This document shows, in pieces, positions 915 through 4,349 of a DNA stretch of 64,000 nt. The DNA is taken from NCBI GenBank assembly GCA_036275915.1, contig DASUCV010000020.1:62001-126000 (forward strand). Direction: 5' to 3'. The DNA comes from Candidatus Polarisedimenticolaceae bacterium (GTDB lineage Bacteria; Acidobacteriota; Polarisedimenticolia; Polarisedimenticolales; DASRJG01). Numbering within the stretch: the stretch's first letter is position 1; every line of letters starts with the position of its first letter. A program made the position numbers and the translations under genes. The notes beneath the pieces were generated by a model, which was not told where the DNA came from, made no database searches, and was given only the letters and a program-made list of their open reading frames with translations.

Positions 915-1412
915 ATGACCGAGTTCGAGATCCGGCCGGCGCGCCGCGACGATTTGCCTCAGGCCTCGCTGCTCGCGGCCGAGCTGGTGCGCCTCCACCA
1001 CGGTTTTGATGCGCTGCGTTTCATGATCTTCGAGCCGATCGCGCCCGGCTACGAGCGCTTCATGGCCTCCCTCCTCGGCCGCAAGGACGCCGTGGTCCTC
1101 GTCGCGATCCAGGATGGCAGCGTCGTCGGCTATCTCATCGCAACGCTGGAAGATCGCGACTGGAGCGACCTGCGCGACGCCTGCGGGAAGATCCACGACG
1201 TGTACGTCGCGGAGGGCGCGCGCGGGAAGGGGATCGCCTCGGCGCTGTGCCGGGAAGCGCTCGAGCGGATGGCGGCGATGGGAGCGCCTCGCGTCGTCCT
1301 GATGACGGCGTGGCAAAACGAGGGGGCGCGCAAGCTCTTCGGTGCCCTCGGCTTTCGCCCGACGATGGTCGAGATGACGCGCGAGTCCGAGTCCCCTACG
1401 CGTCGATCGTGA
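915..1412 (+). CDS. GNAT-family N-acetyltransferase
   Basis: A 165-residue single GNAT domain. The acetyl-CoA pyrophosphate-binding motif is visible as VYVAEGARGKGIASALC (R-G-K-G-I-A core), followed by the usual helix and then the WQNEGARKLFGALGF segment typical of motif B. Family members transfer an acetyl group from acetyl-CoA to amines or protein N-termini; the acceptor cannot be predicted. An AGGAGG ribosome site lies 9 bases before the ATG, which fixes the start. The 3' end overlaps the convergent GST gene by 17 bases. Confidence 0.85.
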   Translation: MTEFEIRPARRDDLPQASLLAAELVRLHHGFDALRFMIFEPIAPGYERFMASLLGRKDAVVLVAIQDGSVVGYLIATLEDRDWSDLRDACGKIHDVYVAEGARGKGIASALCREALERMAAMGAPRVVLMTAWQNEGARKLFGALGFRPTMVEMTRESESPTRRS

Positions 1413-2007
1413 CGTGTCCCGGCTGCGCCTTGACGCGCGCGAGCCACTGACGAATGGCCGGGTACCGATCGAGGTTGAAGTCGCCTTCGCCGGCGACGTG
1501 CGTGTACGCGTAGAGAGAGATGTCCGCGAGCGTATAGCCGTCCCCCACGAGGAACGATCGCCCGGCGAGATGGCGCTCCATCGCATCCAGCGCCTTGTAA
1601 CCGCCCTTGTGCTTCTCGCCGAGCGCAACCGGATCGACTTCCTTGCCGCGGTAGTGCAGCCAGTTCCTCGCCACCGCGATGTGCGGCTCGTGATCGTATT
1701 GCTCGAAGAATTGCCACTGGAGGACCTGAGCCCGCTCGTACCGGTCGGTGGGCACGTACCTCGTCCCTTCGGCAAAGTACCAGAGGATCGCGTTCGATTC
1801 GCCGAGGGGACGACCATCGTCGAGCACGATCGTCGGCACGCGCAGCGACGGGTTCTTGCCGCCGAGCACCTCGGGCCGGTTGGACCGGTCGTGCACCGAG
1901 AGCTCGCGTCGCTCGTAATGCAGCCCGAGGTGCGCGAGAAGGAGGCGGACCTTGTAGCAGTTGCCGGAGATGGCGCTGTCGTAGAGGAGCATCGAGTTCT
2001 CCGTCAC
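1396..2007 (-). CDS. Glutathione S-transferase family protein
   Basis: A 203-residue GST. The thioredoxin-fold N-terminal half contains SGNCYKVRLLLAHLGL, with Ser and Cys at the usual catalytic position, and the ESNAILWY motif that binds the gamma-glutamyl part of glutathione. The C-terminal half is the alpha-helical domain with the conserved GDGYTLADISLYAY. The GTG start at 2007 directly follows the sigma-factor stop. An ATG at 1992 gives a start closer to the family norm, so the true N-terminus is uncertain by five residues. It is the last gene of the ECF42 operon. The likely role is detoxification or glutathione chemistry, possibly part of the sigma-factor response. Confidence 0.85.
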   Translation of the reverse strand: MTENSMLLYDSAISGNCYKVRLLLAHLGLHYERRELSVHDRSNRPEVLGGKNPSLRVPTIVLDDGRPLGESNAILWYFAEGTRYVPTDRYERAQVLQWQFFEQYDHEPHIAVARNWLHYRGKEVDPVALGEKHKGGYKALDAMERHLAGRSFLVGDGYTLADISLYAYTHVAGEGDFNLDRYPAIRQWLARVKAQPGHVTIDA

Positions 2008-3222
2008 TCATGCGCCGACTTCGTGCAGCCGGCGCTGCAAGTACCGTTTCTCGCTCACGTTGGCGACGAGATCGAGAGCCTTGCGATACGCATGGGCCGC
2101 CTCGAGGTTTCGTCCCAACCTCCTCAACAGATCCGCCTTCGCCGCGTGGAGCAGATGGAATCCGTCGAGTGCGCCGTCGCGCTCGATCCCGTCGATGAGC
2201 GCGAGGCCGCGCTCGGGTCCGTCGGCCATCGCGACGGCGGCGGCGTGATTGAGGCGAATCACCGGCGACGGGTGCGCACGAAGGAGCAACGAGTAAAGGA
2301 TCGCGATCTGTCGCCAGTCGGTGGCATCCGCCCGCGGCGACTGGGCATGGAGTGCCGCGATCGCCGCCTGGAGCGCGTAGAAGCCGGCGCCGCCTTCGCG
2401 GAGAGCGCGCTCGGCGAGCGCAACGCCTTCGATGATCTCGTCGCGGTCCCATTTCCCGCGGTCCTGCTCCTCGAGCGTGACGAGGTCGCCGGCGGCGTCG
2501 AAGCGGGCGTCACGGCGTGAGTTCTGAAGAAGAAGGAGCGCAACGAGCGCCCCTGCCTCGGGCTGCCGGGGCAGCAGGTCGCGAACGAGGCGCGCGAGAC
2601 GAATCGCCTCGATCGAGAGGTCGCGGCGGAGCGCCGCATCGCCCGCGGTCGGCGCGTATCCTTCGGTGAAAACAAGGTAAAGGACGCGCAGCACGCCGCT
2701 GACGCGTTCGCCCAAACCGTCGTCAGCAGGGACGACGTAGGGAATCCGAGCTTCTCGAATCTTCGCCTTCGCTCGCACGAGGCGTTGCGCCATCGTCGCC
2801 GCCGGTACGAGGAACGCGCGCGCGATCTCTTCGACGGTGAGGCCGCAGAGCGTCTTCAACGTCAGCGCGATCTGCGCTTCCTCGGCAAGCGCCGGGTGGC
2901 AGCACGTGAAGATGAGGCGGAGGAGGTCGTCCGTGAGCGGCTCCTCGTCGAGGACCGGTGGTGCTGCTTCGTCTTGAACGAGAAGATGCCGTTTCTCTCG
3001 TAGCGACGCCGCGCGCCGCAGGCGGTCGATCGCCTTGTGGCGCGCCGTCGAGACGAGCCACGCCATCGGCTCGCGCGGGACGCCCTCCGCGGGCCAGCGC
3101 TCGACGGCTAGTGCGAACGCTTCTTGGAGGGTGTCTTCGGCGAGGTCGAAGTCGCCGACGAGGCGGATCAGCGTGGCGAGCGCCTTGGGTCGTTCGTCGC
3201 GGAACAGCGCGGTCAGGTCCAT
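2008..3222 (-). CDS. ECF42-type RNA polymerase sigma factor with C-terminal TPR-like domain
   Basis: A 404-residue sigma factor. Region sigma-2 includes DFDLAEDTLQEAF and the REPMAWLVSTARHKAIDRLR stretch. Sigma-4 carries the helix-turn-helix LTVEEIARAFLVPAATMAQR. About 200 residues of helical (DUF6596/TPR-like) extension follow, which distinguishes this group from ordinary ECF factors. The family is known to be encoded beside DGPF/YCII proteins and to lack a classical anti-sigma; the neighbour at 3303 fits. The ATG at 3222 lies at the outer edge of a long inverted repeat. No Shine-Dalgarno sequence is visible before it, so translation is either inefficient or controlled by that structure. The downstream GST follows without spacing. 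Confidence 0.88.
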   Translation of the reverse strand: MDLTALFRDERPKALATLIRLVGDFDLAEDTLQEAFALAVERWPAEGVPREPMAWLVSTARHKAIDRLRRAASLREKRHLLVQDEAAPPVLDEEPLTDDLLRLIFTCCHPALAEEAQIALTLKTLCGLTVEEIARAFLVPAATMAQRLVRAKAKIREARIPYVVPADDGLGERVSGVLRVLYLVFTEGYAPTAGDAALRRDLSIEAIRLARLVRDLLPRQPEAGALVALLLLQNSRRDARFDAAGDLVTLEEQDRGKWDRDEIIEGVALAERALREGGAGFYALQAAIAALHAQSPRADATDWRQIAILYSLLLRAHPSPVIRLNHAAAVAMADGPERGLALIDGIERDGALDGFHLLHAAKADLLRRLGRNLEAAHAYRKALDLVANVSEKRYLQRRLHEVGA

Positions 3223-3294
3223 GGGGACATTCTGCTTTTTACCTCAGCGCTTCGGCACACAGAAGCTCTGAAAGAAAAAGCAGAATGTCCCCAT
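3221..3294. repeat. REP-like long inverted repeat with GGGGACATTCTG ends
   Basis: Bases 3221-3240 and 3275-3294 are exact reverse complements (20 bp). Imperfect pairing continues inward for 13 more positions (10 of 13), leaving an 8-base loop at 3254-3261. The GGGGACA ends resemble the short palindromes scattered at gene ends in Acidobacteriota and Deltaproteobacteria, often linked with RAYT (REP-associated tyrosine) transposases. That link is inference. The ATG of the sigma-factor gene is formed by the last bases of one arm. Confidence 0.7.
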
Positions 3295-3302
3295 TTCCGT
3301 TA

Positions 3303-3674
3303 CTAGGCTCCGATCGTCGCGGGCGCGGGGGTGGGCATGATCGGGCGGACTTCGATCGAGCCGTGGCGCGCGCTGGGAATCCGTGCGGCGAGGCTGATCG
3401 CTTCGTCCAGGTCCTTGGCCTCAACCATATAGAACCCGCCGAGCTGCTCGCGCGTTTCGGCGAACGGGCCGTCGGTCGTGAGCGTCTTGCCGTTCTTGAC
3501 GCGCACCGTCGTCGCCGTGGCGATGGGTTGGAGCGCCTCGCCGGCGATGTACTGGCCCTTCTTGTAGATGTCCTGGGTGTACTCCATGTACTCCTGGTAG
3601 CTCTTCCCCTGCTCTTCCTCGGACATCGTCGCCCAGTCGCCTTCGTTCCCGTAGATCAACAACAGGTATTTCAT
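3303..3674 (-). CDS. YCII-related DGPF-domain protein
   Basis: A 123-residue cytosolic protein starting MKYLLLIYGNEG, with the diagnostic DGPFAETREQLGGFYMVEA motif at about residues 67-85. The fold is the YCII/dimeric ferredoxin-like type. Members are regularly encoded next to ECF42 sigma factors and are thought to be part of that signalling unit or its main target; the biochemical role is unknown. The ATG at 3674 is preceded by a GGGGAG ribosome site. It sits 14 bases after the upstream secreted-protein gene. A long inverted repeat separates it from the sigma-factor gene and may tune the ratio of the two products. Confidence 0.9.
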   Translation of the reverse strand: MKYLLLIYGNEGDWATMSEEEQGKSYQEYMEYTQDIYKKGQYIAGEALQPIATATTVRVKNGKTLTTDGPFAETREQLGGFYMVEAKDLDEAISLAARIPSARHGSIEVRPIMPTPAPATIGA

Positions 3675-3688
3675 CGCCGTCTCCCCTT

Positions 3689-4204
3689 TCACTTCGCCGC
3701 GACGTCGCTCTTGCGCACGACGTGCATGTTCACGACCATCGAGACCTTTCCCTGATTCCACTCCGTCCACGTCGACTTCAGCTCGTTCGGACCGACGAAG
3801 TCGAACGCGGCCTGATGCATGTGCTCGGTCGTCTTCGGATCGATGTTCGATCCTCCGGCGAAGGCGAACTCGATCTTCGAGCCGTTCGGCGCCTGCGCGC
3901 GCATGTGCGGCTGGTTGCCGTTCATGCAGTAGTGCGTGAGCACGAGGTCCTTCCCGTCGAGGTAGTAGACGGTCGTCATCTGATGCTCGGTCCCCGGCAT
4001 CAGCTCTTCGACGACCGCGCTCCCGCCGGCGGTGAGGTGATAGCTCGCCACGAGGTCGCCCTTCTTCGCCATCTCGCCGTCCTCGGCCGCGACCCAGTCG
4101 CCCACGAGCCCCTTGAATCGATCCAGGGACGGTCCTCCGGGCGCCGCCACGACGATCCCCGCGGCCAGCGCCACGGCACCGATCCGCCATCCGGTCTTGC
4201 TCAT
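3689..4204 (-). CDS. Secreted uncharacterised protein, first gene of ECF42 operon
   Basis: A 171-residue protein with an N-terminal signal-like segment (about residues 8-21). A RFKGLVGDWVAAEDG opening follows, then alternating short beta-rich stretches, resembling lipocalin-like or DUF1579-type ligand-binding folds. I do not recognise a specific family. A GGAGG site (in GGAGGACAACG) precedes the ATG at 4204. It is 14 bases upstream of the DGPF gene and likely co-transcribed with it. The start is divergent from ada across 181 bases. A role in sensing or binding a small hydrophobic ligand is speculative. Confidence 0.6.
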   Translation of the reverse strand: MSKTGWRIGAVALAAGIVVAAPGGPSLDRFKGLVGDWVAAEDGEMAKKGDLVASYHLTAGGSAVVEELMPGTEHQMTTVYYLDGKDLVLTHYCMNGNQPHMRAQAPNGSKIEFAFAGGSNIDPKTTEHMHQAAFDFVGPNELKSTWTEWNQGKVSMVVNMHVVRKSDVAAK

Positions 4205-4349
4205 CGTTGTCCTCCATCGTGAGTGCGAGGCCCCTCGGCCTCTTCACCGGGTAGTCGAACGGCCCGGCCGAAAATCGACAGTACGGCGGCCCGGGACCGA
4301 AAGTTTTTTCCCGGCCCGATCCGGCCGGAATTGGTCGTCCATTGGCCGG

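Follow-up and report, generated by a model that had tools for sequence, protein, structure and literature searches.

A miniature TIR element of a dispersed family beside the sigma factor start codon of an ECF42-type operon

TIRtrons and the TIR families associated with TIRYT transposases were described by Di Nocera et al. (2013, PMC3733652) and are also treated in PMC6006769; the motif GGGGWSAS is reported for some TIRs, and for the majority according to PMC6006769. A second described system is the REPIN (Bertels and Rainey 2011, PMC3116915), a dispersed inverted pair of REPs whose host genome carries a RAYT gene. Such repeats can touch the genes beside them: according to PMC12306157, a gene in E. 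coli can be expressed at a lower level when a REP lies <16 nt past its stop codon.

Here, we describe a 74-nt near-perfect hairpin that sits between a DGPF/YCII gene and an ECF42-type sigma gene in a window of 64,000 nt (contig DASUCV010000020.1, positions 62,001 to 126,000) from a Candidatus Polarisedimenticolaceae bacterium. From sequence comparisons, we consider it highly probable that this hairpin is a non-autonomous TIR element, dispersed by a HUH Y1 transposase encoded at C10:47908-48582 of the same genome and inserted beside the DGPF stop codon, with predicted effects of the hairpin on expression. It offers a clear example from nature of a small, single-strand-transposon-derived element within a sigma-factor operon, where it probably uncouples sigma from its partner.

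The hairpin and its operon

The features of the locus are as follows, in window coordinates:

1396-2007, minus strand: glutathione S-transferase (GST)-like gene, directly 3' of the sigma gene and on the same strand
2008-3222, minus strand: ECF42-type sigma factor, 404 aa (Sigma70_r2, Sigma70_r4_2 and a DUF6596 C-terminal extension)
3213-3230, minus strand: 5-codon frame ATGTCCCCATGGACCTGA (MSPWT), which starts inside the arm and runs across the sigma ATG in a different reading frame; putative role in coupling
3221-3294, no strand: non-autonomous TIR-pair element, a miniature element of the GGGGACATTCTGC family, with the GGGG..CCCC core at 3223-3292
3221-3253, plus strand: sigma-side arm, whose inner part has diverged (4 mismatches against the other arm, all within the inner 13 nt)
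3241-3245, minus strand: GAGGT, a Shine-Dalgarno-like string in the stem with a putative role, 10 nt 5' of the arm's ATG and ending 18 nt upstream of the sigma ATG
3262-3294, minus strand: DGPF-side arm, which agrees with the family consensus and has an ATTT flank, as do many copies
3303-3674, minus strand: DGPF/YCII-family gene, whose TAG stop (3305-3303) is separated by 8 nt from the palindrome and by 10 nt from the CCCC end
3308-3311, minus strand: GGAG in the 3'-terminal part of the DGPF gene, a possible original sigma Shine-Dalgarno sequence, now 85 nt from the ATG
3689-4204, minus strand: 171-aa gene with no Pfam or NCBIfam match

The palindrome comprises two 33-nt arms (3221-3253 and 3262-3294) around an 8-nt loop, and the arms are 88% complementary (29/33 pairs). 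A preliminary description of this DNA had reported a 20-bp exact inverted repeat with inner pairing of 10 of 13; the exact pairing of the outer 20 nt is real, but the inner 13 nt pair at 9 of 13 positions as DNA. The sigma-sense leader folded as RNA at -62.9 kcal/mol, compared with -37.5 ± 3.8 kcal/mol for shuffled sequences (z = -6.7; none of 200 as good), and the 74-mer folded as single-stranded DNA gave z-scores of -9.3 and -10.5 for its two strands. The sigma AUG is buried within the stem of this folded leader, and no Shine-Dalgarno-like stretch was found at the usual distance 5' of the sigma ATG. There is no U-run behind the stem on the sigma strand, so the stem is not a standard terminator. 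Compensating G.U pairs in the sigma-side arm, or selection for its GAGGT string, were considered and are not claimed, as substitutions are few and other copies decay too.

ECF42 sigma factors have a DGPF gene nearby and recognise a promoter with the consensus TGTCGA-N14..20-CGAC. The assignment of the window's sigma factor rests on its domains and its neighbour: it features sigma regions 2 and 4, a YCII gene immediately upstream and a long C-terminal extension, which in ECF42 proteins is ~200 residues, according to PMC8999054. A candidate ECF42 promoter lies 5' of the operon (4254-4280, minus strand), but the consensus matches the window 5 times against 5.1 expected, so these matches provide no evidence for such a promoter.

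Dispersed copies and transposases

A BLAST search of the bacterium's own genome with positions 3200-3310 returned 34 matches. The 16-base end GGGGACATTCTGCTTT matched the genome at 39 sites with ≤2 mismatches, 29 of them with no mismatch, compared with 2 matches for the reversed sequence used as a control, and these ends are mostly arranged as inward-facing pairs. Twelve complete pairs were found in addition to the transposase unit described below; several have the same 54-nt distance between starts, while others have differing or nested interiors, such that the ends of the element are conserved and its middle is variable. Several single arms are located at contig ends, as expected of repeats, which break assembly.

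The genome encodes two Y1_Tnp genes. The cognate tyrosine transposase, at C10:47908-48582, starts ~100 nt inside one arm, and the facing arm lies 1,090 nt past its stop codon. In the extracted locus (L041), ends at 1310 and 3170 flank the transposase gene (1409-2086; Pfam Y1_Tnp, 56.8 bits, cut-off 23), and the protein is a REP-associated tyrosine transposase according to NCBIfam NF047646 (82.4 bits, cut-off 80). A RAYT gene, which the preliminary description had proposed as a check on its idea of a mobile-type repeat, is therefore present and bracketed by the element's own ends, and this idea is well borne out by the 39 ends. The same description had stated that an absence of other copies, combined with conservation in distant relatives, would point to a native regulatory hairpin; instead, copies are abundant and the exact end occurs in one of 100 related genomes, which is the genome of the window itself.

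Transposase homologues (E ≤1e-20) are encoded in 18 of the 100 related genomes, own genome included. The bracketing analysis covered four homologues from relatives, with the close homologues L190 and L191 left out, and each of the four is bracketed by its own inverted ends (GGGGACATTCCGCTTTTT, GGGGACATTGCACGTT, GGGGTCAGGCCCCTTTTTC and GGGGACACTCATCTTT). The second transposase of the window's genome has a different end, GGGGACAGTAACCGAG, which argues for specific pairing between transposase and end.

Further afield, a scan of a public genome collection identified the 19-base end in 69 stretches from ~36 isolates (counted from titles), spanning Woeseiaceae, Ectothiorhodospiraceae, Chromatiales, other Gammaproteobacteria, Planctomycetota, Deltaproteobacteria, a Geotalea and a Ruminococcus. 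A facing pair (≤1 mismatch) is present in 49 of the 69 stretches, and at four of the 69 loci, all in other organisms, a homologous transposase (51-56% identical) lies beside or between arms of the same type. The occurrence of this end in ~36 genomes of several phyla suggests either wide horizontal spread or strong conservation of the end.

Several other features of these units were observed. The cognate transposase unit (L041:1310-3185; G000:C10:47809-49684) also encloses a gene for an HtrA/DegP-like serine protease (Trypsin_2, PDZ), and homologous units elsewhere end 30-85 nt past the transposase; the HtrA-like gene is possibly a passenger, or the unit possibly consists of two independent ends. 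The second transposase gene (G000:C1:148444-149061; L042) is bracketed by GGGGACAGTAACCGAGTTTTTCTTACC, and its right end falls within the coding frame of the next gene, which by eye encodes a P-loop ATPase-like protein. A second palindromic family, GGGGACAGCTACCGAATT, has 32 ends in the genome at ≤1 mismatch (control 0; for example, L198:1501 and L192:1501) and is often nested with other palindromes, with ~25 nt of further perfect inverted flanks in L198. The nested copies were inspected as a route to the element boundary, but variation in the interior beside the arm of the GGGGACAGCTACCGAATT family meant that an empty site could not be recognised.

Gene spacing and the sigma start codon

A DGPF-type frame is present upstream of sigma in 12 of 13 relatives' loci examined; L014 lacks this frame and hence falls outside the spacing count, which also left out L019 (its sigma frame lacks a start codon downstream of the final in-frame stop) and L099 and L023-L040 (partial or weak matches). 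For several relatives, we picked the start codon as an in-frame ATG, GTG or TTG near the aligned start (CTG for L015). Across the 12 relatives, the distance from DGPF stop to sigma start was +1 (overlap) three times, then -2, -7, -8, -8 and -12, and finally -28, -56, -66 and -72, meaning that the two genes are ≤12 nt apart in 8 of 12. The window has a spacing of -83, which becomes -13 to -9 once an insert of 70-74 nt is subtracted, in agreement with the earlier suggestion that the element separates genes that are normally tightly spaced. In the same-family relative G001 (L015), the DGPF and sigma genes overlap and the element is absent. As the nearest orthologue is only 61% identical, we infer the insertion from the copies and the spacing.

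In two relatives, L012 and L013, GC-rich hairpins of their own abut the sigma ATG (L012:1454-1497 and L013:1450-1485), with the DGPF stop 72 and 56 nt away, respectively. These resemble each other and do not behave as repeats: across four genomes searched, the L013 leader had one match in G027 and none in G031, while the gapped stem pattern had six in G027 (control 4) and one in G031 (control 1). Such stems would be expected if a native regulatory hairpin were conserved at ECF42 start codons, but this is a very improbable origin for the hairpin in the window, which is unrelated to them in sequence and belongs to a dispersed family whose exact end occurs in one of 100 related genomes; in addition, most relatives with an upstream DGPF gene (8 of 12, within 12 nt) have no room for one. 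The L012 and L013 hairpins do indicate that ECF42 genes in this class can tolerate a hairpin at the sigma ATG. The insert may mimic a form of control that already exists, in which case a mobile hairpin would have been exapted for a role filled natively in other genomes, or it may be harmless.

The preliminary description held that the sigma ATG consists of the final three bases of one arm, and that the element thereby supplies the start codon. The first statement is one base off, as the palindrome provides only the A and T of this codon (minus strand, 3222-3220) and the G comes from the flank. In the sigma sense, the sequence to the left of the insert is ..TAGTAACGGAAAT and that to the right is ATGGACC. 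When the insert was removed in silico, ATGGACC remained under every shared-AT partition considered, except for the removal of ATGGGG..CCCCAT, and the sigma protein of L012 (the closest orthologue, 61% identical) begins at the residue that the alignment pairs with the first Met of the window's sigma factor. These two comparisons do not favour a donated start codon, and the sigma ATG probably predates the insertion. Of 30 arms in this genome, 29 have an A directly after CCCC and 25 have a T as the following base, so the A and T may be element bases, yet the start codon still need not be new. The proposed displacement of the ribosome site is upheld: the sigma ATG has been moved away from the GGAG at the DGPF gene end.

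We propose that the single-strand (HUH, Y1) tyrosine transposase encoded at C10 disperses the copies, presumably by cleaving and joining its TIRs in single-stranded form, as is typical of its kind, and that one copy entered next to the DGPF stop, in a gap that would then have been ~9-13 nt. The hairpin would be transcribed within a DGPF-sigma(-GST) mRNA and would break short-range translational coupling between DGPF and sigma. By moving the old GGAG (3311-3308) to 85 nt from the sigma ATG and hiding the AUG in a stem, the insert would be predicted to result in lower, uncoupled translation of sigma. By analogy with E. coli REPs, a hairpin that starts 8 nt past the DGPF stop may also slow ribosomes or decay at that point.

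It is rather unlikely, but worth weighing, that this was instead a recent neutral insertion with no important effect, where sigma has an internal promoter or is little needed. The sigma and GST reading frames are intact and some other copies of the element show arm decay, which would be expected without selection. However, a stem of high stability contains the sigma start codon and there is no Shine-Dalgarno sequence nearby, a situation that usually matters for translation.

Copies at gene junctions and comparison with known elements

The position of the window's copy was compared with that of its relatives within the genome. The stop codon of a gene abuts 11 of the 12 complete copies, nine identified by an automatic caller, which accepts stop-to-stop frames that span ≥90 codons and have a GC pattern like that of coding DNA, and two by eye; neither isolated arms, nor those at contig ends, nor the transposase unit entered this count. 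In the nine automatic cases, the stop lies within 13 nt of the copy and often 1-3 nt off, as TAAT or TAAAT directly before GGGG. The two by-eye cases are the copy at mqnC, where the preceding frame ends in TAA, and that of the window (DGPF TAG, 10 nt from the CCCC end), and the single exception is C6:64886. As a background, 0.8% of all window positions, and 1.8% of those outside called frames, lie ≤15 nt past a called stop, which is a lower bound because the caller misses the window's DGPF frame and the frame upstream of mqnC. Given the 11 stop-adjacent copies, the copy in the window probably targeted the DGPF stop, and its contact with the sigma ATG would follow from the tiny gap between DGPF and sigma. 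The ends may bring the TAA with them or may target it.

The mqnC copy (L069:477-1591; G000:C6:72040-73154) lies between a TAA stop and mqnC. Its arm, AGGAAAAAGCAGAATGTCCCCC, gives an in-frame ATG with AGGA upstream, and past the element the previous frame ends in ..CGCTAA. The frame opened by the arm ATG encodes a full-length MqnC of 343 aa (TIGR03699, 493.5 bits, residues 3-336 on profile positions 5-341), such that an element arm can supply a start codon, though not in general. This copy speaks for the idea that the element donates a start codon as part of a start module (Shine-Dalgarno-like AGGA or GAGGT plus AGAATG), which in the window would act through coupling of MSPWT to the sigma AUG. 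Two further observations point the same way: an arm ATG in L041 begins a frame of 280 aa whose N-terminus resembles a signal peptide (no Pfam hit), and the window's arm has GAGGT 10 nt before its own ATG.

A portable start codon as a general property was nevertheless rejected on the frame statistics of 163 arms (30 own and 133 elsewhere), selected for an intact ATG, ≤1 mismatch in the 17-base arm end and flanking sequence of ≥60 nt ahead of the arm and ≥330 nt beyond it, with identical contexts kept as one copy. Frames opened by the arm ATG are no longer than the other two: in frames 0, 1 and 2, 12, 13 and 8 of the 30 own arms, and 23, 22 and 25 of the 133 others, are stop-free for 100 codons. 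A Shine-Dalgarno-like string is also absent from 19 of 30 own arms and 113 of 133 arms elsewhere. The arm ATG of the window's copy is in a different reading frame from sigma, and comparison with homologues places the sigma start at the present ATG, which makes a donated start module an improbable explanation for this locus; coupling of MSPWT to the sigma AUG is possible but speculative. A brief literature search listed no precedent for elements that supply start codons, which does not imply that none is in print.

A broader notion, which we regard as unlikely and offer tentatively, is that the TIR ends are adapted to gene junctions, bringing or targeting upstream stops (TAAT or TAAAT before GGGG) and sometimes giving a downstream AGGA..AGAATG. 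The element could thus enter closely packed operons, the one with mqnC being an example, and shift the ratio between two genes of one transcript while killing neither. With 11 of 12 copies adjacent to a stop and one that opens mqnC, the question of how these elements select gene junctions and survive there becomes testable in one genome.

Among described elements, the E. coli intercistronic REPs (Liang et al. 2015, via PMC12306157) likewise place a hairpin ≤15 nt from a stop between genes; they belong to an unrelated sequence family, and the element here also covers the start of the next gene. The resemblance to REPINs (PMC3116915) extends to an inverted pair in one long hairpin, dispersal, a variable spacer and a RAYT gene. 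In contrast, REPIN ends are REPs, whereas a single arm of the present element does not fold (0 kcal/mol on either strand) and no GTAG tag joined to the arms was seen by eye in the printed copies. Membership of the GTAG REP/REPIN class therefore fails, as the arm is not a palindrome with a GTAG-type tetranucleotide.

The likeness to TIRtrons (PMC3733652, PMC6006769) is closer. In both, a Y1 tyrosine transposase is bracketed by long TIRs (PMC3733652), the TIRs start with GGGG(A/T)(C/G)A (PMC3733652, PMC6006769), and they are dispersed away from the gene and also occur as dimers, here as 39 ends and 12 pairs. The TIR here, GGGGACAT, fits GGGGWSAS at 7 of 8 positions, as the motif needs C or G last. 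Full fits are found at the homologue ends in G001 (GGGGTCAG) and G090 (GGGGACAC) and at the second own transposase (GGGGACAG), while the homologue ends in G006 and G008 (GGGGACAT) also fit at 7 of 8. Two further differences are apparent: one unit here also encloses the HtrA-like gene, and members of subclass 2.1 carry a C-terminal HTH-like domain (Bac_DnaA_C, HTH_23 or HTH_28; PMC6006769), whereas a Pfam search with E up to 5 identified Y1_Tnp alone, and no HTH domain, in three of three proteins. Membership of subclass 2.1 is therefore not claimed. Overall, the ends of the element fit TIRs of the published TIRtron/TIRYT kind (PMC3733652) rather than canonical GTAG REPs; this kind of element is already known, and what is new here is this copy and its instructive position.
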